From: a virus
Strand: one strand, 5' to 3'
DNA length: 37,430 nt
IMG/VR virus record: IMGVR_UViG_3300046516_000867
Coordinates: 1 to 37,430 of that record
The position numbers were made by a program, and so were the translations under genes. Shown piece by piece: positions 7,495 to 28,758 of this stretch; within the stretch, counting starts at the first letter, position 1; each line of letters begins with the position of its first letter. The notes below the pieces were generated by a model. That model was not told where the DNA came from. It saw nothing but the letters and a program-made list of their open reading frames with translations, and did not search any database.

Positions 7495-8809
7495 AACACT
7501 CGTGCTGCCGTTCGCGCCGCGTGATTGGCAACGACCTCTCATAGACGATGACGCGAAACGCATCGTCGCCGTCGTGCATCGCCGTGCCGGCAAGTCAACG
7601 GCGTTGATGTGGCGCGGACTTAAACGATGCCTCACTGAACGAAAGTCGAAACATCCGCGCGTCGTCCACATCCTGCCCTACGGTGTGCAGTGGCAACGAA
7701 CCGGGTTATGGGATGATCTGGTGCGGGCGGCTGAACAACTGCCCGACGCCATCGTGCGGCGGTCGGAGATGTCGATACGGCTTCCGAATGGCGGGGTTTA
7801 TCAATGCGGCGGCGCGGACAATCCCGATGTGTGGCGCGGCGGCGCGGCGGACGAGGTCATCATCGATGAGTTTGACGACACGCCGCAATCGATGGTTCCG
7901 TTGGTGATTGAGCCAATGCTCGCTGACCGAGACGGAACGCTGGTCCGCAGTGGAACGCCGAAAGGACGCGGGTTGCTTCAGGCGGCGTATGATCGCGCGA
8001 AGGTCACGGCGGGGTATTCTTCTTATTTGCTGGACTACAAAGCGACTGGTGCGCTGTCCGGAGAGGCGATTGAGCGTTTGCGCGCCGAAATGAGCGAGGA
8101 AGAGTTCGCGCAGGAGATGGAGTGTTCGTTCAACTCGCCGAACTCTGGGAGTTACTATGGTAAGTTGATGGATGAGGCGGAACGCGAGGGCCGTGTCTGT
8201 CTCGTGCCACATGATCCCGCGTTGAAAGTATGGACTTCGTTTGACCTCGGGATAGACGACTCGACGGCGATATGGTGTTGCCAGATCACCCGCGGCGGCG
8301 AGTGGCGGCTGATCGACTACATCGAGGACAGTGGCGCGGGGTTGGACCATTACGCGAGGCTATTGCAGGCCCGGCCTTACGTCTACGAGAAGCACCTGTT
8401 GCCGCACGACGCGGCGGTGCGCGAACTGGGTTCCGGCCGGTCCCGCACCGAGACGTTGCATGGCCTCGGCGTTCGCCCCACCCGCGGCGTCGGCGCGCAC
8501 AGCGTGGCCGATGGCATCAACGCCGTCCGCATGATCCTGCCGCGCGCCTGGTTCGACGCCGAGAAGTGCGCCAAGGGCATTCACGCGCTGCGGCACTACC
8601 GGCGGGAGTGGAACGAGGCGGCGCAGACGTGGCGCTCGGCGCCCGTTCATGATCACGCCAGCCACGGCGCGGACAGCATGCGCTACCTCGCCCTCGGTGT
8701 CCGCGAGGCCCGCCCCGAGAGCGTCGACAGCATCCTGACGCGCCCGCTGCGTGAGCCGGTCACGATGCACGAGGGCCTCGGCAACAACTCGGCGTGGATG
8801 GGCGTGTGA
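7481..8809 (+). CDS. terL: Terminase large subunit (packaging ATPase-nuclease)
   Basis: The ATPase half shows Walker A VVHRRAGKST (about residues 31-40) and Walker B EVIIDEFDD (about 125-133) with the catalytic Glu. A coupling motif LVRSGTPKG (about 152-160) follows. The nuclease half has the expected acidic sites: SFDLGIDDSTA (about 251), LPHDAAVREL (about 307) and HASHGADSMRYLAL (about 393-406). The enzyme pumps DNA into the prohead through the portal and cuts at headful or specific sites. Length is normal. The 5' two thirds use more T-ending codons than the very GC-rich 3' third. Confidence 0.9.
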   Translation: MAQRKTLVLPFAPRDWQRPLIDDDAKRIVAVVHRRAGKSTALMWRGLKRCLTERKSKHPRVVHILPYGVQWQRTGLWDDLVRAAEQLPDAIVRRSEMSIRLPNGGVYQCGGADNPDVWRGGAADEVIIDEFDDTPQSMVPLVIEPMLADRDGTLVRSGTPKGRGLLQAAYDRAKVTAGYSSYLLDYKATGALSGEAIERLRAEMSEEEFAQEMECSFNSPNSGSYYGKLMDEAEREGRVCLVPHDPALKVWTSFDLGIDDSTAIWCCQITRGGEWRLIDYIEDSGAGLDHYARLLQARPYVYEKHLLPHDAAVRELGSGRSRTETLHGLGVRPTRGVGAHSVADGINAVRMILPRAWFDAEKCAKGIHALRHYRREWNEAAQTWRSAPVHDHASHGADSMRYLALGVREARPESVDSILTRPLREPVTMHEGLGNNSAWMGV

Positions 8810-10166: not shown

Positions 10167-10631
10167 ATGGCCCATACGCCCACGACGCACAAAGATGACG
10201 ACGACAAGGCGGCGCCGGCCAAACCGGCGACCAGAGCCGCCATGCCGCGCGACACCAGCGCCGACCAGACGCGCCTGCTGCTGCTGCTCGCCGGCGACTG
10301 GGTCAACAACGACCGCACGCACGCCCGCGAGATCGCGGTCCTGGTGACCTCGCTCACCGCGTCAGCAGGTCCGCCGGTCAATGTGGACGTGCCGCACGTC
10401 ACGCAGGCGGGTGCCACGCTCAACTGCACGATGGGCAACTGGAACGGCGAGCCGACCGAGTATGCCTACGCGTGGCAGGCCGATGGCGTGGCCAACGAGG
10501 CGACCGGGGCGACGTACGCCGTGAAGCCCGAGGACGCGGGCCACAGCCTGGCCTGTGTCGTCACCGCGACCAACGCCATGGGCAGCACGACGGCGCCGAT
10601 GTCCAACGCCGTGGCGATCCCGGCCGTCTGA
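10167..10631 (+). CDS. Ig-like-domain virion protein, 154 aa
   Basis: Residues about 70-154 are an immunoglobulin-like fold as found in phage surface proteins: VPHVTQAGATLNCTMGNW, then AYAWQADGVANEATGATYAV, then LACVVTATNAMGSTTAP. The first 65 residues are polar with a charged run (HKDDDDKAAPAKPA), possibly a linker to the particle. Ig-like phage domains commonly bind cell-surface sugars. It directly precedes the fibre gene, so it probably sits on the head or a fibre. Confidence 0.65.
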   Translation: MAHTPTTHKDDDDKAAPAKPATRAAMPRDTSADQTRLLLLLAGDWVNNDRTHAREIAVLVTSLTASAGPPVNVDVPHVTQAGATLNCTMGNWNGEPTEYAYAWQADGVANEATGATYAVKPEDAGHSLACVVTATNAMGSTTAPMSNAVAIPAV

Positions 10632-10635
10632 CACC

Positions 10636-12246
10636 GTGGCCGCGTCTGACCCGACGATGGGCGTGCCGACGCCGACAGGGGTGCTGCAAGGCGTCGCCGC
10701 GTTCTCGTGGGATGGCTCGGCGTGGCAACCCAGCGGGCGCGCGGGGCCGTCCGTGGCGACGCCAACGGGGGTCTTGCGAGGGGTCGCGGCGTTCAACGGC
10801 GGCCCGTCGTGGCAACCGTCAGGGCGCGCCGGTCCGGACGTGGCGACACCGACAGGTGTACTGGATGGTGTCGCGGTCTATACGTGGTCCGGATCTGCCT
10901 GGACGCCGCCGGGTGGCCAGACGACGCCATCGACGCCGACCGGGACGCTGCGTGGCGTCGCGGCGTTCAACTGGGATGGCGCCGCATGGCAACCGGCGGG
11001 TCAGGCCGGACCTGACGTGGCGACGCCGTATGGCGTGCTTCAGGGCGTGGCCATGTTCAACTGGTCTGGCACTGCCTGGGCGCCGGCGGGCGCGCCGTCG
11101 CTGTCGTTGGACTTCATGACGCCCGGCACGCTCGATCCGCGGATTACGTTCACCCGCGCGTCCACCGCGACATACACCGACGCGACCGGAACGATCCAGA
11201 CGGCGGCCACGAACGCGCCGAGGTGGGACTACGATCCGGTGACGCACCAATTGCGTGGGCTGCTGATCGAGGAAGCGCGGACGAATATCGCGTTGCAATC
11301 GGCGGTGGGATCTTCTCCGTGGACCGCGTGGGGATCGATAACGGCGCCGACCGAGACGCCGAACGCCGTCGCGGCTCCTGACGGCACGCTTACCGCTACA
11401 TCACTCGCGTTTCCGGCCGTGACCGCCGGAGCGACCAGCATCCTGTATCAGAATATAACCCCGACGGCGGCGCCGTATGCTTTTAGCGCGTGGCTGAGAG
11501 GCGCCGTCGGCGGTGAACGCGTGTGGCTCGCGGTGGCGAACGGCGCGATTTATTATAGCGCTCCCGCTGTTTTAACCAGCGCGTGGCGGCGGTTCGTTCT
11601 GATTACTCCAACCTTACCGGCGGCGAGCCTGCCATTTTATGTCGGGGTTGATTTACGGGATGCCACGCAGACGCCGACGTCCGCGCAAACCGTCTACGCC
11701 TGGGGCGGTCAGGTCGAGCAAGGCGCGTTCGCGACCAGCTACATTCCCACGGCGGCGGCGGCGGTGACGCGGGCGCAGGACAGTTGCGCGATACCGCCAG
11801 CGAACATGGCGCCGTGGTTCATATCGCCCGGCGGGTCTTGGTTCGCTGAGTTCGATTTCTTTAATCCGTCTCCCGGCAACTCTCGTATTGTCGGCCCAAC
11901 CAACGTGGCGGGCGGTATAACGCCGCTGTTTTTGACCGCCGCACCGGTTAACGGATCAGCGTATGATGGCGTGGGCGCCATCGCCTCGACCAATCCAACG
12001 ACGCCAAACAGCGTTGTTAAAATGGTTTCGACCTGGGCGGTCGGTCAGGCGAAGTTCGTCACCAACGCGGGCGCTGTCGCGTCCACCGCGTCGATGACGG
12101 CGGGTTATGCCGCGCTTGGTTCATCAGGAACCAGCTTCATGATGGTGTCTCCGACCTTGGCGGATAATACCAGTGGTCATCTGCGTCGCGTCAGCTACTG
12201 GCCGCGCGCATTGTCAGACGCCGAGATGCAACAGGTGACGACATGA
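10636..12246 (+). CDS. Tail fibre with five tandem Trp-rich repeats and a lectin-like C-terminal half, 536 aa
   Basis: GTG 10636 follows the previous stop by 4 bases; ATG 10657 is also possible. Residues 12-152 are five 23-30-residue repeats of the form TPTGVLxGVAAFxWxGxAW. From residue 153 a widely shared phage fibre module begins: SLDFMTPGTLDPRITFTRAS then ATYTDATGTIQTAATNAPRW then LLIEEARTN. It continues into a concanavalin/lectin-like beta-sandwich (residues about 220-370) and a second beta-rich domain. Probable role: recognition of surface polysaccharide. The ATGA junction couples it to the tailspike gene. Confidence 0.75.
   Translation: MAASDPTMGVPTPTGVLQGVAAFSWDGSAWQPSGRAGPSVATPTGVLRGVAAFNGGPSWQPSGRAGPDVATPTGVLDGVAVYTWSGSAWTPPGGQTTPSTPTGTLRGVAAFNWDGAAWQPAGQAGPDVATPYGVLQGVAMFNWSGTAWAPAGAPSLSLDFMTPGTLDPRITFTRASTATYTDATGTIQTAATNAPRWDYDPVTHQLRGLLIEEARTNIALQSAVGSSPWTAWGSITAPTETPNAVAAPDGTLTATSLAFPAVTAGATSILYQNITPTAAPYAFSAWLRGAVGGERVWLAVANGAIYYSAPAVLTSAWRRFVLITPTLPAASLPFYVGVDLRDATQTPTSAQTVYAWGGQVEQGAFATSYIPTAAAAVTRAQDSCAIPPANMAPWFISPGGSWFAEFDFFNPSPGNSRIVGPTNVAGGITPLFLTAAPVNGSAYDGVGAIASTNPTTPNSVVKMVSTWAVGQAKFVTNAGAVASTASMTAGYAALGSSGTSFMMVSPTLADNTSGHLRRVSYWPRALSDAEMQQVTT
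10669..11091 (+). repeat. Five tandem protein repeats in the fibre gene (about 87-90 bp each)
   Basis: Repeat units start at residues 12, 42, 71, 100 and 130 of the fibre. The constant residues are TP-x-G-x-L-x-G-V-A-x-(F/Y) and AW-x-P-x-G. Unit 2 has lost one residue, and the variable positions lie between strand-like segments. The DNA copies have diverged but are still recognisable, so the array can expand or contract by recombination. Confidence 0.8.
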
Positions 12247-13787
12247 ATGACCGGCCGAGTTACCCATGGTCCGAGGGTGACGCGCTGTTCGCGTCTGAAC
12301 TCAACGCGGCGATCGCCAACGCGGGCGGCGGTGACGGCGGCGGCGTCAGTATCCTGGATTTCGGCGCGAAGTGCGATGGCGTGGCCAACGATACCGTCGC
12401 TGTCAATACCGCTCTGACATCAGGTGCGAACCGGGTCACCATCCCCGCCGGTAAGTGTTGCTATTTGCCCAACGGCATCACGGTTCCCAGCGGTGTCGCG
12501 CTGGAAGGGTTGTCGTTCTTTTCGCAATCGCCCAGAAATGGCACGACACTATCGCCGCCCAGTTCCTCGATCCTGACCAACGCCAACATAAACTCCGTGA
12601 CGCTCGGTTCCGGCGCCAATCTTCAGGCGGTCGCTTTGCGAAACCTCGTGATCGTGACAAACGCCACGTCCGCGCCGACCTCCGGCGCCGGGGTTTATGT
12701 CAACACGGGCGCTCAGGTTCGTTGTGATAATGTATTGGTGTACAATGCTTATAACGGGTTCTATTGGAAGACGGCGGGCGCGAACGGCATCATTGGGTGG
12801 ATGGACGGTTGCCAGACCGATCAGATATCCGGGCATCACGTCGTGCAGGACACGTGGCCTGAATTGCGGCTGAACATGTGCCGGTTCACCGGCGCGTATG
12901 GCGCGCTGGCTTATGTTTATATGACGGGGGGAGCGGGCAGCGGGGACATCCTGCCGAATGGCCACTTCGCCACGAACTGCCAGTACAACGAAAACGGACC
13001 CGACGTTGGCGCGCTCGTGTTGGCCGGCGGCATGATGTCCGGATCGCTGGCGCAGGAGGTTCATTTCGTTAACTGCCACTCGGAGCATTCCAGCTACATC
13101 GTGCGAACAGACGCGACGGAACCGGGGTTACTGAGTTTTGTTTTCGTCGGCGGCACGCATTTTTACACCGCGGACTTTTTCAGACTTGATCCGGCGACCA
13201 CCTCGATCACTCAGTTTCGGATAGCCGCGTGTAATCTGGAAGGCCCGTCATTCACGATGGCGGCGCAATTCTTCGTCGATTGTCAGGTGGTCGGCACCTA
13301 TATCGGGAGCAATGTCGCGCTGAGCGGGGGCGGTACGCTCGCTTTCTCGGGTAACAGCGTCTTCGGGAACCTCGCGCTGTCAGGCAACTGGACCGCGCTT
13401 GTTGTGAATACCACGCTTCGAGGCTCGTTCTCCAATACCGCGACGGGGGCGGTCTCCGTCGCGATTCCCGGCAATTCCATCGTGTTGGGAGCGCCCGTGA
13501 GCGGAGCGGATTTTGGTTCGCATACCGCATCAGGCGTCACTGACCTGTCCAGGCATGTCCAACTCTACACTGGCTATGCCGGGATCAACGTCACCGCGTC
13601 AGCCATGAATTTCGTGATCGCTGGCGCGGCGCCGCTTTCGGTGATCGAGGGTAGCAATTCCGGACTGCTGGCCGCGCGTTTGGCGGGGTCTCTGAGTTAC
13701 GCGAACGACGCGGCGGCGGCGGCTGGCGGTATTCCGGTCGGCGTTCTTTATCGTAACGGCAGTGTCGTGCAAGTGAGGGTCGCATGA
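12243..13787 (+). CDS. Tailspike with pectate-lyase-type beta-helix, 514 aa
   Basis: After a short head-proximal part (PSYPWSEGDALFASELNAAI), the typical spike motif SILDFGAKCDGVANDTVAVN (about residues 36-55) marks the start of a right-handed parallel beta-helix. The rest is a long series of short strands rich in Gly, Asn and Thr, ending in a compact domain of about 90 residues. Such spikes are trimeric and usually cut or bind host O-antigen or capsule. Catalytic residues cannot be assigned by eye. The ATGA overlap couples it to the fibre gene. Confidence 0.8.
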   Translation: MNDRPSYPWSEGDALFASELNAAIANAGGGDGGGVSILDFGAKCDGVANDTVAVNTALTSGANRVTIPAGKCCYLPNGITVPSGVALEGLSFFSQSPRNGTTLSPPSSSILTNANINSVTLGSGANLQAVALRNLVIVTNATSAPTSGAGVYVNTGAQVRCDNVLVYNAYNGFYWKTAGANGIIGWMDGCQTDQISGHHVVQDTWPELRLNMCRFTGAYGALAYVYMTGGAGSGDILPNGHFATNCQYNENGPDVGALVLAGGMMSGSLAQEVHFVNCHSEHSSYIVRTDATEPGLLSFVFVGGTHFYTADFFRLDPATTSITQFRIAACNLEGPSFTMAAQFFVDCQVVGTYIGSNVALSGGGTLAFSGNSVFGNLALSGNWTALVVNTTLRGSFSNTATGAVSVAIPGNSIVLGAPVSGADFGSHTASGVTDLSRHVQLYTGYAGINVTASAMNFVIAGAAPLSVIEGSNSGLLAARLAGSLSYANDAAAAAGGIPVGVLYRNGSVVQVRVA

Positions 13788-20985: not shown

Positions 20986-21759
20986 ATGTTTCTGCAAACC
21001 ACTGGGGATCTAATTACGTTTGTGTTACGAGCGAGTTCGATAAACGGTATTGGCCAGACCCCGATGCCGGAGGACAGCAACACGGGGTTGTCGTTCCTTC
21101 AGATGCTCATCGCGCAATGGCAGCGCAAGCGGTGGCTGGTCTGGGCTGAGCAGGAGGTCTCGGCCATCGCGACGGGAAACGACAGCTACACCATCGGACC
21201 GGGGCCGGGAACTGACTTCGTGACCCCGCGGCCGGACAAAATCCACGCCGCGTGGTGCCGACTGATGCCGTTCGGTGGCCCCAACGCGGTTGATCTATCG
21301 CTGGCGATCATCGAGGCATATGAGGACTGGGCCACGATCGCGATTAAAGACCTTAAGTCGATCCCCGCCGCCGTGTTCTATGATAGTTCGTTCCCGGTCG
21401 GGAAACTGACGTTCTGGCCGGTGCCGCCCGCTTCGATCTACGAGATGCACATCGTCGTGAAAGGGCAGCTACCCGCCTACACTACCCTCGTCGATCCGCT
21501 GGCGCTCCCGGATGAATACATCGAGGCGTTGGTCTGGAGCCTCTGCGTTCGCATGCAGATGGCCTACGGCCTCCCCTCGCGCCCGGATCACGTTCAGGCC
21601 ATGCGGCAGGCGGTGGACGTGGTCAAGATGGCCAACGCGCAAATCCCGCTGCTGTCGATGCCGGCGGCGCTGAGCGGGCACCGCGGCGACGTGAGCAGTT
21701 GGAGCGGCAAGGGGCTGTCGCAAGCGTGGACCGTGTCAGGGCCGAGTGTGCTGTCGTGA
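20986..21759 (+). CDS. Head-to-tail adaptor, P22 gp4-like, 257 aa
   Basis: The sequence follows the P22 tail accessory factor family. It begins DLITFVLRASSINGIGQTPM, has the conserved GLSFLQMLIAQWQRKRWLVW, and continues with ALPDEYIEALVWSLCVRMQM. The protein docks to the portal and stabilises packaged DNA. It is longer than P22 gp4 (166 aa), with an extended C-terminus. Its GTGA junction couples it to the gp10-like gene. The first 60 bases use AT-ending codons. Confidence 0.75.
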   Translation: MFLQTTGDLITFVLRASSINGIGQTPMPEDSNTGLSFLQMLIAQWQRKRWLVWAEQEVSAIATGNDSYTIGPGPGTDFVTPRPDKIHAAWCRLMPFGGPNAVDLSLAIIEAYEDWATIAIKDLKSIPAAVFYDSSFPVGKLTFWPVPPASIYEMHIVVKGQLPAYTTLVDPLALPDEYIEALVWSLCVRMQMAYGLPSRPDHVQAMRQAVDVVKMANAQIPLLSMPAALSGHRGDVSSWSGKGLSQAWTVSGPSVLS

Positions 21760-23756
21760 CGCGAGTAGCTCTGACAGGGGGTGCCTATCAATCTAGAAGC
21801 GTAATAAGCGCCGCACAGCGCTGTCTCAATTTATACGTCGAGCCGCTGCCAGAGGCCGAAGGCGAGCCGTCACAGGCCGCGCATTACCCCACGGCCGGCA
21901 CGCGGCTTCTGGGCTCGATCGGCCCAGGTCCCATCCGGGGCATCCGTCAGGCTGTCACCGGCGGCATCTTCGTCGTCTCCGGCTCCGGCGTTTACCTGGT
22001 GGACGCCACGACGTGGACCGGCACGCATCTCGGCGATATCACACCCGGCCTCACGACGCCCGTCTCGATGGTCGATAACGGTATCGACATGGTGATCGTG
22101 GACGGCTCGGCGAACGGTTGGCACGTCACGCTGACCGGGAACGTCTTCGGCCCGATCATCCAGCAGGGAACGCTGGTCGCATCCACCCAGAACGCGCCCA
22201 CCGAGCTGATCGAGCAGGACACGGCGCGATACGTACAGTTTACCCCATCTTTCGATGGCCGTATCACGACGGCCTCGCTGTCGATCGCGTCCGGCTATCT
22301 CGGCACCATGAAATGCTCCATATTCAACAGCGCGGCGGACGCGCCGACCGACGAGATCGGTTCCGCGCGGGACGCGTTAAACCCGTTCACCGGCGACAAT
22401 CCGTTTACCTTCGTCAACGCGGTTCCGGTCACGGCCGGGCAACAATACTGGATCGGCTTCGTCTCCGACACGACGGCGGGCATCTGGCAAATCGACGGCG
22501 ACAACATCGGCAACCGTTCCACCACGCCATTCGCCTCATTCCCGGTCAACAGCCCGGCCACGGTGGGCGCCACAGGCGTCGTCGTGTCAATGCGATTGGA
22601 ATCCGATCCCGGCGGCATCTTCGCCGGCGCCGATCGCGTGGACTTTCTGGATACGTACCTGTTGTTTAACAAACCGGGAACGCCGCAATTCTACGCGTCC
22701 GATAGCCTCTCGCTGACGTTCGATCCGTTGTGGTTCGGGAATAAAGAAGCCTATTCGGACATGTTACAAACTTTGGTGGTGGTCAAGCGCGATATCTGGC
22801 TGCTTGGCGGTTCAACGACCGAGATATGGGCCGATGTCGGGCCGCAATCCGCGCTCGTGTCGTGGCCCTTCCAATCGCAGCCCGACATCTTCATTGATCA
22901 CGGCATCGCGTCGAAATACTCGGCGGCGGAATATGACAACGGCCTTTTCTGGCTCAGTCACGACCGGCAGGGCCAGGGCATTGTCATCATGGGCGCGGGA
23001 TACCAGACGAAACGTATATCCACGTACGCCATCGAGGCCGAGATCGCGGGCTATACGACGATCGCCGACGCGATCGGCTTTTGCTACCAACTCGGCGGAC
23101 ATGCGTTCTACGTCCTCTCATTCCCCGCCGCCGACAAGACGTGGGCCTACGATATCACGACCGGAAGCTGGCACGAGTGGGTATGGATCGACGGCAATGG
23201 CGACGAACACCGGCACCGCGCCAATTGCTACTGGCCATGCGTGACCCCGGTGGGTTCCGTTCCGGTCATCGGCGACTGGCGGAACGGCGACCTTTACGCG
23301 CTTGACCTTGGTATCTATACCGACAACGGAACGACGATCAAGCGGGTACGCTCGTTCCCGCACGCGCTGGCTGATGGCAAACGGGTGTTCTATCGCCAGT
23401 TCCTCGCCGACATCGAGTGCGGGCAGGCCCGCGATACCGTCTGGGTCATCTCGCCGCCGGATAACCTGCCACGCGAAACCGGGGCGCTGTTCACGCGCGA
23501 GGATGGCGCCCCGATGATGCGCGAGGCGGGACGCTCGGACATGGACATGGTGAGCCTGCGCTGGTCGGACGATCGTGGCCACACCTACGGCAATCCCATC
23601 ATGCAATCCGCCGGTAGCGCCGGCGAATACCTCACCAGCCTGCAATTCCAGCGGCTCGGCATGGCGCGTGACCGCGTGTTTGAAATCTCGTGGTCCACGC
23701 CCGCGAAACGCGTTTTGCAAGGCGCATGGGTGGATGCCACTTCGGGGATGAGTTGA
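21756..23756 (+). CDS. Tail hub, P22 gp10-like, with an inserted beta domain, 666 aa
   Basis: GTG 21756 overlaps the upstream TGA as GTGA. The N-terminal TRVALTGGAYQSRSVISAAQ then RCLNLYVEPL is the conserved start of gp10-type packaged-DNA stabilising proteins, and the later IFIDHGIASKYSAAEYDNG-type region also fits. Between about residues 130 and 290 there is an additional beta-sandwich-like part (RYVQFTPSFDGRITTASLSI, then VTAGQQYWIGFVSD). It resembles jelly-roll carbohydrate-binding modules. P22 gp10 is shorter (472 aa), so the insert is extra. The protein plugs the portal and anchors the spikes or needle. Confidence 0.75.
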   Translation: MTRVALTGGAYQSRSVISAAQRCLNLYVEPLPEAEGEPSQAAHYPTAGTRLLGSIGPGPIRGIRQAVTGGIFVVSGSGVYLVDATTWTGTHLGDITPGLTTPVSMVDNGIDMVIVDGSANGWHVTLTGNVFGPIIQQGTLVASTQNAPTELIEQDTARYVQFTPSFDGRITTASLSIASGYLGTMKCSIFNSAADAPTDEIGSARDALNPFTGDNPFTFVNAVPVTAGQQYWIGFVSDTTAGIWQIDGDNIGNRSTTPFASFPVNSPATVGATGVVVSMRLESDPGGIFAGADRVDFLDTYLLFNKPGTPQFYASDSLSLTFDPLWFGNKEAYSDMLQTLVVVKRDIWLLGGSTTEIWADVGPQSALVSWPFQSQPDIFIDHGIASKYSAAEYDNGLFWLSHDRQGQGIVIMGAGYQTKRISTYAIEAEIAGYTTIADAIGFCYQLGGHAFYVLSFPAADKTWAYDITTGSWHEWVWIDGNGDEHRHRANCYWPCVTPVGSVPVIGDWRNGDLYALDLGIYTDNGTTIKRVRSFPHALADGKRVFYRQFLADIECGQARDTVWVISPPDNLPRETGALFTREDGAPMMREAGRSDMDMVSLRWSDDRGHTYGNPIMQSAGSAGEYLTSLQFQRLGMARDRVFEISWSTPAKRVLQGAWVDATSGMS

Positions 23757-25177
23757 TGTCGGGCAAGATTTCAGGCGATACCACCGTCCCCTACAAGGCC
23801 GGGCTGTTTGTCCCCGCCGTGGACATGACGCGGACCATCGGCGCGCAGAACGTCAAGCTGTTGGCGTCGTCGCTGGTGCCGGGGGCGGTCGTCACGCCGG
23901 AGCAGTACGGCGCCGTGGGCGATGGCGTGGCCGACGATACGATGTCCATCCAGCAGGCCATCGACGCGGCCTCGGCGGCTGGCGGGGGCACCGTCCAGCT
24001 TGCCGTCGCCAACTACAAAATCACCGGCACGCTGCGGATCGGCAACGGTAGTGCCTCCGCCGTCTCGACGCACGCGGGCGTGATCCTGGCGGGCGTCCCG
24101 GTTCCCTCCGGCGCGTTCTTTCCGGGTTACATCATCCCCGCGTCCTCGCGGATCACCTGGGCCGGCATCGCCGCCGAGATGATCATCATCCTCGGCCCGC
24201 TTCAGGGCTGGGGCGTACAGAACCTGGCACTCGACGGCGGCGGCCTCGCCACTGTCGGCATCCACGTCATTTCCGGACAGTTCGGCGATTGCTCGAACCT
24301 GCTGATCAGCGACTGCGTGGCCGAGGCCATCGGCTCCGATACCGTGCAGACATTCGCCGGCGCGGCCAATACCGACAGTCTGTATAATTCCTGGAAGAAT
24401 ATCTATATCTCGATGCCCTCCGTCTCCGGCGTGAAAGGCATCGTGCTGACCGGTGCCACCGGCACCGTAACGTCCGACACGGATTATAACCTGTTCGAGA
24501 ACATCATGATTGGCCTGCCGATCAGCGGCCTGGGCTATGGCATCTACTTGCAGAACGCGGACAGCAATCAGTTCAAGAACGTCTCCCTGGCGGGGGGCAC
24601 CGCCTCGGCGGTCGGCGTCGTGTTCGACTACTCCGCCAATACCGCCGCCGTGTTTCCTTGCGGCAACGCGTTTTTCGGCATCGATACCAACGGTACCACG
24701 CTGGGCGCGAACCAGTGGATCAATGTCGGCGCGCCGTCCATCAACGCGCGGCCCAACTTCCTGCGCGGGCTTTACCAGGCCAACAGCGCGACCAATCCGG
24801 TGCTGCGTAACATGCACCCCGATCTGCCGGTCCAGACCGGCGAGCAGGTGTTGCTGTTCTCGCAGAGCGCCTCGATCGGTGGTTCCTTGATCCATACGCC
24901 CTACGTCACCGGCATCTATCGTATCAGCCTCTATCTGGCGATCCAGTCCACCGGCAACCCGGTCACGCTGACCGCCGGCGTTGGCTGGAATGACGGCTCG
25001 GCGCGCTCGCTCTCGACGCAGCCGATTAATATGTCCACCGGCGCCAACAATCCGCAGGTGCTCACCGCCACCGTCATCGATCTGGCGAACGACTCTTTCA
25101 CCTGGTCAACCACGGTCTCGGGGGCGCCGGGTGCCGGGACTTACATGATCGCCATCGTGATCGAGAGGCTAAGCTGA
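23756..25177 (+). CDS. Second tailspike, pectate-lyase superfamily, 473 aa
   Basis: ATG 23756 shares its A with the upstream stop (TGATG). After a short N-terminal part, PEQYGAVGDGVADDTMSIQQ (about residues 48-67) is the hallmark entry into a pectate-lyase-type beta-helix. The following GGGTVQLAVANYKITGTLRI is the typical first rung. The C-terminal 130 residues form a separate beta-rich tip (LLFSQSASIGGSLIHTPYVT, then GTYMIAIVIERLS). It follows the gp10-like gene, where it would attach. Two spikes in one phage suggests two surface receptors. Confidence 0.8.
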   Translation: MSGKISGDTTVPYKAGLFVPAVDMTRTIGAQNVKLLASSLVPGAVVTPEQYGAVGDGVADDTMSIQQAIDAASAAGGGTVQLAVANYKITGTLRIGNGSASAVSTHAGVILAGVPVPSGAFFPGYIIPASSRITWAGIAAEMIIILGPLQGWGVQNLALDGGGLATVGIHVISGQFGDCSNLLISDCVAEAIGSDTVQTFAGAANTDSLYNSWKNIYISMPSVSGVKGIVLTGATGTVTSDTDYNLFENIMIGLPISGLGYGIYLQNADSNQFKNVSLAGGTASAVGVVFDYSANTAAVFPCGNAFFGIDTNGTTLGANQWINVGAPSINARPNFLRGLYQANSATNPVLRNMHPDLPVQTGEQVLLFSQSASIGGSLIHTPYVTGIYRISLYLAIQSTGNPVTLTAGVGWNDGSARSLSTQPINMSTGANNPQVLTATVIDLANDSFTWSTTVSGAPGAGTYMIAIVIERLS

Positions 25178-25950
25178 TGGCCGCCGTTCCGCTGCTGCCC
25201 AACCCGGTTCCGCAGTTCTGCGACGCCAACGGCGAGCCCTACGCGGGCGGGACGATCGCGACCTACATTCCGGACACAAGCACGCCCAAGGCAACGTGGT
25301 CGGACCCTGGTCAACTGGGTCAGAACACCAACCCGATCGTGCTGGACGCCGCCGGCCGGTGCGTCATGTACGGGGACGGCGCCTATCGGCTGATCTTGAA
25401 AGACGCGGCTGGTAATATCATCTGGGACCAGCCATCCGACACCATCATCTCGGCGGCCATGACTCCCGTTGTCGGCGCACCGACGATCGCCGACGCGGTC
25501 AATCTGTTGGGGCTCGGCGGCGGCTCCGTCTCGGCCGAGGCGGCGGCACGATCGACGGCGGACAGCGCCGAACAGGGGGCGCGCATCGCCGCCGACAACG
25601 CCATCACGTCAAACCTCAACGACGAGATCAACCGCGCCTCGGCGGCCGAAGGCAATTTGCAATCGCAGATTTCGGGATTGCCGTCGTTGCCCACGCAACC
25701 GCTTCCCCCCGGCTACTCGTTCCGCTTCGGCAATACAGTGTCGGACAGCGGCGGCCATTTCAGCGCGGTTTTCACGCCACCGTTCCCCGCCGCCGTCGAT
25801 ACGGTCATCACCACGACCGTGGTTAGCTGGTGGGCCGGGGTCACGACCCAATCGGCGGGCGGTTTCTCCGGGATCACCTCGTCGCCGCTGGCCGGCGGCA
25901 ACTGGAACAAAGGACCGCAAGCGGTCAGTTGGTTGGCATTGGGCCACTGA
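25177..25950 (+). CDS. Tail fibre with gp53-like tip, 257 aa
   Basis: The N-terminus has a widely shared particle-binding module (VPQFCDANGEPYAGGTIATY, then AGRCVMYGDGAYRLILKDAA). The middle part is a helical stalk (SAEAAARSTADSAEQGARIA). The C-terminus (SFRFGNTVSDSGGHFSAVFT, then WNKGPQAVSWLALGH) resembles the gp53-like fibre tip domain. It is coupled to the spike gene by TGATG. A trimeric host-recognition fibre is likely. Confidence 0.7.
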   Translation: MAAVPLLPNPVPQFCDANGEPYAGGTIATYIPDTSTPKATWSDPGQLGQNTNPIVLDAAGRCVMYGDGAYRLILKDAAGNIIWDQPSDTIISAAMTPVVGAPTIADAVNLLGLGGGSVSAEAAARSTADSAEQGARIAADNAITSNLNDEINRASAAEGNLQSQISGLPSLPTQPLPPGYSFRFGNTVSDSGGHFSAVFTPPFPAAVDTVITTTVVSWWAGVTTQSAGGFSGITSSPLAGGNWNKGPQAVSWLALGH

Positions 25951-26481: not shown

Positions 26482-26949
26482 TTGGCCAACACTAAGATTT
26501 CAGCCGGCGCCGATCCCGTCATCCTCGCCGCGACCGACCTCGTGCCGATGGCTCGTAGCGGCTCCACGACCGCCTACGCGGCGACAATGGCCGAGGTCGT
26601 CACATGGACCAACACGGGTCTGCCCTACGAGGTCGCGGTGGCCACCTCGCCCGGCATCGCCTCGGCCGGCACGGTGGCCAGCGTCAGCCGGGGTGACCAT
26701 GTGCATCCGTTCGATAATACCCGCGTAAGCAAGTCCGGGGACGCCATGACGGGGCTCCTGACCGGCACCGTGGCGCAATTCAACACTTACACGGTCACCG
26801 CCTCCGGCCCGACGTGGACGACCGGCACGGCGGCGCCGTCGAGCACGCAGCCGGTCGGCTCGCTCTACAGCCGGGTGGGCGGCGCGGTGGGTGCGACGCT
26901 CTACGTGAGCCGGGGCGGCGGGACGTGGGCGGCTGTCGCTGGTGTCTGA
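26482..26949 (+). CDS. Small fibre/tip protein with TTG start, 155 aa
   Basis: GGGGA at 26471-26475 precedes TTG 26482; no ATG fits. The sequence has fibre-like motifs: an ISAGADPVILAATDLVPMAR start, then SRGDHVHPFDNTRVSKSGDA (a tail-fibre repeat motif), then a MTGLLTGTVAQF strand. It ends in a beta-rich tail (YVSRGGGTWAAVAGV). It overlaps the next gene by 8 bases. Confidence 0.6.
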   Translation: MANTKISAGADPVILAATDLVPMARSGSTTAYAATMAEVVTWTNTGLPYEVAVATSPGIASAGTVASVSRGDHVHPFDNTRVSKSGDAMTGLLTGTVAQFNTYTVTASGPTWTTGTAAPSSTQPVGSLYSRVGGAVGATLYVSRGGGTWAAVAGV

Positions 26950-28024
26950 GGTGCCGCCGTTCGTCGTGTTCAGTATGCCCCGCGCCCGGTCGAAATGGCT
27001 CAGTCAGTTCTTGCGATACGGGCCATGGCAGGTGGGCCATGACGAGATCCGCCATTGCCGATCGTTGGATGACGTGACCTCGTGGCTCGCGCAGCCGTTC
27101 ACGGGCACCGTGGAAACCGCCGCAAGCAGCTTTTGGCGTCTGCTGCCGGAGGGCGTTCGCGTCGTCACCGTGCGCCGGCCGGTGGCCGATGTGGTCGCCT
27201 CGCTGCGGCGTGGTGGTCTCGCGTTCGATGATGCCGTGATGACGCGGGCGGTCGAGGCGATCGAGCGCAAGCTGGACCAGATCGAGCGGCGGCTGCCGGA
27301 CGTGCTGGCGGTCACGTTCGCGGATCTGGCGGCTGAGCCGTGGTGTGCGCGTGTCTTCGAGCATTGCCTGGGACTGCCGCACGACAGCGCCTGGTGGGCG
27401 GCGTGCGCCCGCGTCAACATTCAGATCAGCCTGCCGCACCTCATGCGCTACTACAGCGCCCACGCGGCGCAGATGGCTAAGCTGGTCGCCGTGGCGAAGC
27501 ACCGGACGATCGCGACAATGACGCGCGCGGCGGTGGAGCCGCCGGAGGGCGTGACGTTCCAACACGAGGATGCCCGTTCCTTCTACCGCGACGCTCAACA
27601 CCTGTTCGCCGAGCACCTGTTCCAGACCGGACAATCCCCGGATGCGTGCGACGACAAGAACTGGCCGCTGGTGTTCCAGATGGACGACTTGGGTCTGATC
27701 CAGACCATGACGGCGCGGAGCAATGGCCGGATATTCGGATATCTGCAAACGGTGATCGGCCCGACGTTCGATGCGCCTGGTGTCGTGCAGGCGTGGCACA
27801 CCATCTTCTTCGCCTCGCCCGACGTGCGCGGGTTGGGCATGAAACTACAACGCGCGGCGCTGGCGCGGCTGCGCGAGATGGGCGTGGATGAGGTCATCAT
27901 GCGCGCCGGGGTGCGCGGCTCCGGGCCGCGCCTGGGCACGTTCTACCGCCGTCTCGGCGCCGAAGACCTCGGGCAACTCTACAGAGTGGGAATAACGAGA
28001 TGGGATGGGCAGCGGCAGCCATAG
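26942..28024 (+). CDS. Sulfotransferase-like / GNAT acetyltransferase fusion in the virion operon, 360 aa
   Basis: Start is GTG 26942 (GTG 26951 is possible). Residues 7-21 (FVVFSMPRARSKWLS) have the 5' phosphosulfate loop pattern of sulfotransferases. Residues 72-90 (VRVVTVRRPVADVVASLRR) match the 3' phosphate site with its RRP-x-x-x-x-x-S pattern. From about 200 a GNAT fold follows, with the acetyl-CoA loop in SPDVRGLGMKLQRAALARLR and a final TFYRRLGAEDLGQLYRV strand-helix. The fusion lies between fibre genes and ejection genes and overlaps the gp7-like gene by 25 bases. It may modify phage fibres or host surface sugars. The partner molecules are unknown. Confidence 0.65.
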   Translation: MSEVPPFVVFSMPRARSKWLSQFLRYGPWQVGHDEIRHCRSLDDVTSWLAQPFTGTVETAASSFWRLLPEGVRVVTVRRPVADVVASLRRGGLAFDDAVMTRAVEAIERKLDQIERRLPDVLAVTFADLAAEPWCARVFEHCLGLPHDSAWWAACARVNIQISLPHLMRYYSAHAAQMAKLVAVAKHRTIATMTRAAVEPPEGVTFQHEDARSFYRDAQHLFAEHLFQTGQSPDACDDKNWPLVFQMDDLGLIQTMTARSNGRIFGYLQTVIGPTFDAPGVVQAWHTIFFASPDVRGLGMKLQRAALARLREMGVDEVIMRAGVRGSGPRLGTFYRRLGAEDLGQLYRVGITRWDGQRQP

Positions 28025-28758
28025 CGGGCAGCGCCGTAATTGGCGCCGGCACGAGCATATACGGTGCGAACAAGGCGGCGGCGGGGGCCGACAAATCGGC
28101 CAACCTTCAGAACGCGATGTATCAGCAGACGCGCGGCGATCTGCAACCGTATTTCGGCCCAGGTCAGACGGCGGTCGGCAACGCGCTGCAACTGGCCCAG
28201 AGCGGCCCCACGGGAGGCGGGCCGGATTACGTGGCGCAGGCGGCGGCGCACATCCCCGGTCAGATGACGCAGGCGGAACTGGAACAGACGCCCGGCTACC
28301 AGTTCACGCGGGATCAGGGCCTCAAAAGCGTTCAGTCGGCGGCGGCGGCGCGCGGGCTCGGCGTCTCCGGCGCGGCGCTGAACGGCGCGGCCACCTATGC
28401 CACGGGCCTCGCCGACAAGACGTATCTAGATCAGTTCAATGTCGCACAGCAACGGTTCGGCGATTACCTCAATCTCAATACGGGGCAGCAAGGAAACCTG
28501 ACGAACCAGTTCAACCGTTACAACTCCATCGCCACGCTCGGCGAGAACGCCGCCGCCGGGCTTGGCACGCAGGGCGTCTCGCTGGCCAATCAGGCGGGCG
28601 GCTACATCAACGCGTCCGGGCTTGATCAGGCGGCGGGGGTCAAGAACGCCACCAACGCGCTGTCGAGCGGGGTGAACAGCTACCTCGGGTACAACGCTTT
28701 GCAGAGCGCGCTGCACCCGACGATGGGCGGGTATATCGACACCACCAGCACTTTTTAG
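28000..28758 (+). CDS. DNA ejection protein, P22 gp7-like, 252 aa
   Basis: It begins MGWAAAAIAGSAVIGAGTSI, a hydrophobic glycine-rich start found in small ejection proteins, and continues with YGANKAAAGADKSANLQNAM. The middle part has LEQTPGYQFTRDQGLKSVQS and ARGLGVSGAALNGAATYATG, both recurrent in gp7-type proteins. It would leave the virion and help form a channel across the cell envelope. It is the first of three consecutive ejection genes, the same place as gene 7 in P22. Confidence 0.7.
   Translation: MGWAAAAIAGSAVIGAGTSIYGANKAAAGADKSANLQNAMYQQTRGDLQPYFGPGQTAVGNALQLAQSGPTGGGPDYVAQAAAHIPGQMTQAELEQTPGYQFTRDQGLKSVQSAAAARGLGVSGAALNGAATYATGLADKTYLDQFNVAQQRFGDYLNLNTGQQGNLTNQFNRYNSIATLGENAAAGLGTQGVSLANQAGGYINASGLDQAAGVKNATNALSSGVNSYLGYNALQSALHPTMGGYIDTTSTF

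Follow-up and report, generated by a model that had tools for sequence, protein, structure and literature searches.

What could a protein that joins a sulfotransferase-like domain to a GNAT acyltransferase-type domain be doing in a virion operon? The question is raised by a gene encoding 360 aa at 26942..28024 (+ strand) of the window analysed here, which is an entire virus record of 37,430 bases. The gene is a single open frame with a GTG start (an alternative GTG start lies at 26951), and it overlaps the ORF upstream by 8 nt and the gene downstream by 25 nt. That downstream gene, a conserved partner, encodes a P22 gp7-like DNA-ejection protein (28000..28758, + strand; phrog_598, E 6.9e-24). 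Conserved on the upstream side is a P22 gp10-like gene for head closure (Hc3) and stabilisation of packaged DNA (21699..23756, + strand; phrog_578, E 3.3e-90). P22-type portal, major head, adaptor, head-closure and gp7-like ejection genes were all found in the window, and a tail-spike-like gene lies upstream of the fused gene. Between these last two is a gene (25177-25950) that matches phrog_26190, a family of unknown function also present upstream of many relatives. Elsewhere, two tail-protein-like genes (10555-13787) are located between the terminase and portal genes instead of following those for the head; these show a match to phrog_5939 and a weak match to a pre-neck appendage protein.

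To establish the family, searches were seeded with two loci whose products are 79 and 74% identical to the window protein. Iterated scans of viral contigs yielded 294 stretches with a relative of the N-terminal half and 182 with a relative of the C-terminal half, of which 80 of each were kept. Profile searches of the sequences collected from 182 loci then identified 169 fused ORFs, a count that includes overlapping loci of the same contig; with these excluded, there are 95 different fused proteins, a few of which are truncated at a contig edge. The initial annotation had described a single fused protein and named a frame error joining two genes as one of two outcomes that would refute it. Given the 95 different fusions, such an error is ruled out, and we conclude that the fusion is real, common and encoded in one frame. 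Conservation was assessed on 58 fused members sharing less than 88% identity (median pairwise identity 52%). Comparison with five relatives gave dN/dS values of 0.20-0.38 for the N-terminal half and 0.15-0.42 for the C-terminal half; hence, both halves are under purifying selection. A tblastn search of INPHARED with the window protein returned no match, and a genome scan produced zero matches with six query sequences and seven with 58. We found no description of the fusion in a literature search that covered publications mostly at the level of listings. The domain combination is new, while both of its component kinds are already known.

When the window protein is searched alone, the two halves are recognized weakly, by different PHROG families. 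Residues 207-348 match phrog_1249, annotated as acetyltransferase (3.2e-5), and residues 7-167 match phrog_38824 (3.5e-4) and phrog_10855, annotated as hydrolase (1.5e-3). Against Pfam, the same single sequence gives nothing above cut-off: there is no Sulfotransfer match, and Acetyltransf_1 scores 14.7 bits, short of its 20.7-bit cut-off. The three strings first quoted as cofactor loops are all present, namely PRARSKWL at residues 13-20, RRPVADVVASLRR at 78-90 and RGLGMK at 296-301, and each contains residues that are invariant in the 58 relatives. A chance match to the motifs is ruled out by this invariance.

The N-terminal domain (residues about 6-196; 26957..27529, + strand) is assigned by phrog_10855, Pfam and hhalign to a putative sulfotransferase-type P-loop fold. 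Invariant in 58/58 members are P13, R16, W19, H33, E58, T59, R79 and S87. The first three belong to the 5'-phosphosulfate-type loop P13-R-[SAC]-R16-[ST]-x-W19 (26978..26998, + strand), which follows a strand at residues 7-11 and in which the Gly of the canonical P[RK]SGT[TS] is Arg16 in all members. R79 and S87 define a 3'-phosphate-type motif, R79-P-x6-S87 or R-x7-S (27176..27202, + strand), whose spacing is that of the sulfotransferase 3'-phosphate site; the Magnetospirillum fulvum member retains this spacing as RRD...S. Family matches point the same way. All 27 members of alignment A3 match phrog_10855 (best 5.4e-12), and among the 58 members of alignment A6, ten match Sulfotransfer_3 (best 2.3e-5) and ten match Sulfotransfer_4 (best 5.6e-6) at E<=0.01. 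In addition, hhalign aligns 157 columns, or most of the N half, with a protein of the marine virus AG-345-F15 (95.3%, E 2.3e-8). That protein, encoded at L034:2911-3570 in this member of the Kyanoviridae, is unannotated, carries an EETR motif and reaches 27.4 bits for Sulfotransfer_3, for which the cut-off is 27. The N half is read as sulfotransferase-like, with a 5' loop that departs from the expected pattern at R16.

H33 and E58, both invariant, and the nearly invariant E35 are candidate catalytic residues of the N half. By eye, residues 13-37 align without gaps on the PRSGTT...CGEETR motif of tyrosylprotein sulfotransferase, which was confirmed in PDB chains of TPST1 and TPST2; in this alignment, E35 pairs with a Glu of GEETR. 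Given that the alignment was made by eye and that E35 is not strictly conserved (Q in 6/58, absent in the Magnetospirillum members), its possible equivalence to that Glu is a hint at most. Sequence searches of the PDB with the N half returned designed helical proteins and a DNA polymerase, with no relatives. Compared with the sulfotransferase superfamily (Sulfotransfer_3, PF13469; Sulfotransfer_4, PF17784), the N half shares the P-loop after strand 1, the 3'-phosphate motif R-x7-S, Pfam matches that are weak but recur, and the whole-domain hhalign alignment to a cut-off-passing phage member. It differs in its 5'-loop Arg in place of Gly, its short length (about 190 aa) and its GNAT partner. 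A Walker-type NTP hydrolase, as the label of phrog_10855 would imply, is disfavoured: GxxxxGK[ST] is absent and the R-x7-S motif is retained. Pseudomonas phage Ab18 gp36 exemplifies phrog_10855 and is of the same N-domain family, in which the N profile retrieved locus L032; unlike the fused protein, Ab18 gp36 is stand-alone, and its gene is placed between those for DNA ligase and exonuclease, apart from the ejection genes.

The C-terminal domain (residues about 203-352; 27548..27997, + strand) was delimited with Foldseek, VIA-align and phrog_1249. R259, G262, G299, R337 and G339 are invariant in 58/58 members, and 52/58 retain Y335, which stands where the general-acid Tyr usually lies. Its pyrophosphate loop, R296-G-L-G299-M-K301 (27827..27844, + strand), departs from the canonical acetyl-CoA pattern [RQ]xxGx[GA] at both ends: position 296 is R in 19/58, P in 29/58 and Q in 2/58, and position 301 is K/R in 56/58 in place of G/A. 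Matches to phrog_1249 were obtained for 20/27 members of alignment A3 (best 6.9e-8) and to Acetyltransf_1 for 6/58 members of alignment A6 (best 9e-5, E<=0.01). Among the named relatives is ORF54 of the podophage KZY1, a stand-alone GNAT of phrog_1249 (hhalign probability 96.9%, E 2e-10, against the C half).

The structural model is consistent with this division. The AlphaFold model (AF2, 27 sequences) has a mean pLDDT of 85.3 with a pTM of 0.56, and hence each domain appears well modelled while their mutual placement is uncertain. Against the PDB, Foldseek matched GNAT 2r7h (E 6.9e-8), with solved GNATs covering residues 202-354, and the best VIA-align match was 3lod (Z 15.4, rmsd 2.2, 131 aligned, residues 199-352). 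As modelled, the GNAT fold of residues about 203-352 is confirmed, even though the acetyl-CoA loop named in the initial annotation is non-canonical at P/R296 and K301. In the N half, the confident model has a strand/helix order of P-loop type. The PDB fold matches listed all belong to the GNAT half, and no sulfotransferase is among them because the GNAT half occupied the list. In BFVD, matches named 'Sulfotransferase family' rank 8 and 12 (TMt 0.76 and 0.50); these are phage proteins, for which the aligned range is not given. Two folds had been anticipated, and the GNAT fold stands; for the N half, a sulfotransferase-type fold is suggested by the confident model together with sequence and predicted viral structures, with no solved sulfotransferase among the matches listed.

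Gene order is the strongest clue to function. Of the fused loci, 91 different ones extend at least 700 nt downstream; in 76 of these, the next gene, no more than 1.5 kb away, is gp7-like. A head-closure gene is upstream in 81/99 loci with more than 2.5 kb upstream, the few N-only loci included. The genes of P22 run 10, 26, 14, 7, 20, 16, and the fused gene thus sits in the slot filled in P22 by gene 14; the corresponding place in T7 is that of gene 13, ahead of internal-core genes 14-16. By hhalign, however, the likeness to P22 gp14 (DUF2824) and T7 gp13 (PF11090), both encoded directly ahead of ejection or internal-core genes, is one of position alone, with probabilities of 0.6% and 0.3% for single query sequences. 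Homology of the C half to either protein is therefore unsupported, although the P22 gp14 relatives are too similar to one another for a useful profile, and a common fold may exist. The placement between fibre and ejection genes reported earlier thus stands on the ejection side, while the fibre-region neighbours vary among relatives.

This pattern bears on whether the protein modifies the cell surface, sulfating or acetylating host glycans so as, for example, to limit re-adsorption or sticking of released virions. Sulfotransferases and acetyltransferases both modify sugars in other organisms, and the tail-spike-like gene upstream in the window would fit such a role. Yet it is the tie to the ejection genes that is constant rather than the fibre region, inspection by eye revealed no evident signal peptide or membrane segment in the fused protein, and surface-conversion genes usually lie outside the assembly operon, as gtr does in P22. 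We consider surface modification improbable.

The fusion is also carried by the cultured genomes of Azospirillum rugosum, Magnetospirillum fulvum and M. molischianum, where its gene neighbourhood is similar to that in viral contig L166. In Azospirillum, the fused gene is preceded by a tail-tubular-B-like gene, in contrast to the P22-type loci; the fusion is thus present with two tail types. KZY1 ORF54 occupies the corresponding slot, directly after tubular tail B, but is without a sulfotransferase-like half. This agrees with the earlier remark that several podoviruses have acetyltransferases beside their internal-protein genes. PAE2_12 was considered as a further stand-alone GNAT and rejected, its family matches being marginal and its hhalign probability 0.1%.

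Because a gp7-like gene is next in 76/91 loci, in the slot of P22 gene 14, we tentatively favour a role on the ejection proteins, as a late-made transferase or an assembly factor that was once a transferase, without regarding this as the probable answer. The shared position of the Azospirillum gene and KZY1 ORF54 after a tail-tubular-B or -B-like gene counts for the same role. A single polypeptide with a PAPS-type sulfotransferase-like domain and a GNAT acyltransferase-type domain would be made late, as its gene position implies, from the virion operon in which it overlaps the first ejection-protein gene. Its predicted ligands are an acyl-CoA and PAPS (or PAP), and it may act on the neighbouring gp7/gp20/gp16-like ejection proteins inside the infected cell, which would thereby be modified or prepared for packaging. 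Two enzyme-derived folds would then fill the position held elsewhere by assembly factors, P22 gp14 among them. Against this, synteny ties the gene to the ejection genes without naming its substrate. A more specific version, in which a two-headed enzyme both sulfates and acetylates the ejection proteins in the infected cell and DNA delivery depends on this covalent modification, seems improbable; if true, it would include protein sulfation in a phage. Dozens of related viruses keep the fused gene beside those for the injected proteins, which suggests a hitherto unrecognised enzyme acting in virion assembly or delivery. In many podoviruses the ejection module is linked to two transferase-type domains conserved as a pair, and two matters would become testable: covalent modification of phage ejection proteins, and the role of the factor encoded directly before them (gp14 in P22, gp13 in T7).

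One phage GNAT, Rac of the phiKMV-like phages (Phikmvvirus), has a documented host target: it causes the alpha subunit of the host RNA polymerase to be cleaved. Its gene comes after that of the phage RNA polymerase and shares an overlap with the first structural gene (PMC7552054). The fused protein could likewise be a host-takeover enzyme, late-made or co-packaged and ejected, for which a slot beside the ejected proteins is well suited. Rac, however, is stand-alone and alters the host transcription machinery from a gene beside that of the phage RNA polymerase (PMC7552054), whereas the fused gene lies within the structural block, and presence of the fused protein in the virion is an assumption. 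This explanation strikes us as rather unlikely.

The motifs themselves pull in two directions. That cofactor-type residues are retained without exception points to catalysis, or at the least to ligand binding, while the 5'-loop Arg and the changes in the GNAT loop call for caution on catalysis. The latter features would suit a non-catalytic assembly chaperone, in which enzyme-descended folds now serve as binding or scaffold domains for the ejection proteins, as would the annotation of P22 gp14 and T7 gp13, from the corresponding place, as morphogenesis or probable scaffold proteins. A mere scaffold is nevertheless unlikely to have kept R79, S87, H33, E58 and G299 invariant across 58 diverse members. 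Moreover, loci L028 and L030 encode the N half alone, without any GNAT half, which favours separable functions. For these reasons, we hold a pure chaperone to be unlikely. The N-only genes of L028 and L030 still precede a gp7-like gene, which we count for the preferred role on the ejection proteins.

The architecture of the family is modular. In the N-domain tree, in which the bootstrap has not settled and the root is placed at the midpoint, the N-only rows of the fused family fall among fused rows, which suggests that their GNAT half was lost rather than gained late in the others. Another variant (L099:4995-5894), also ahead of a gp7-like gene, joins the N half to a non-GNAT C-terminal part of about 100 aa. 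At L270:7593-8997, from a MAG, the halves are two overlapping frames, the N half ending at 8549 and the GNAT ATG lying about 20 nt before that stop; the arrangement is either genuine, with two genes or a split one, or an artefact of a sequencing frameshift in the MAG. Finally, one phage carries a second GNAT gene after the fused gene, stand-alone and of the KZY1 type (L058:6595-7047; phrog_1249, 1.1e-12).
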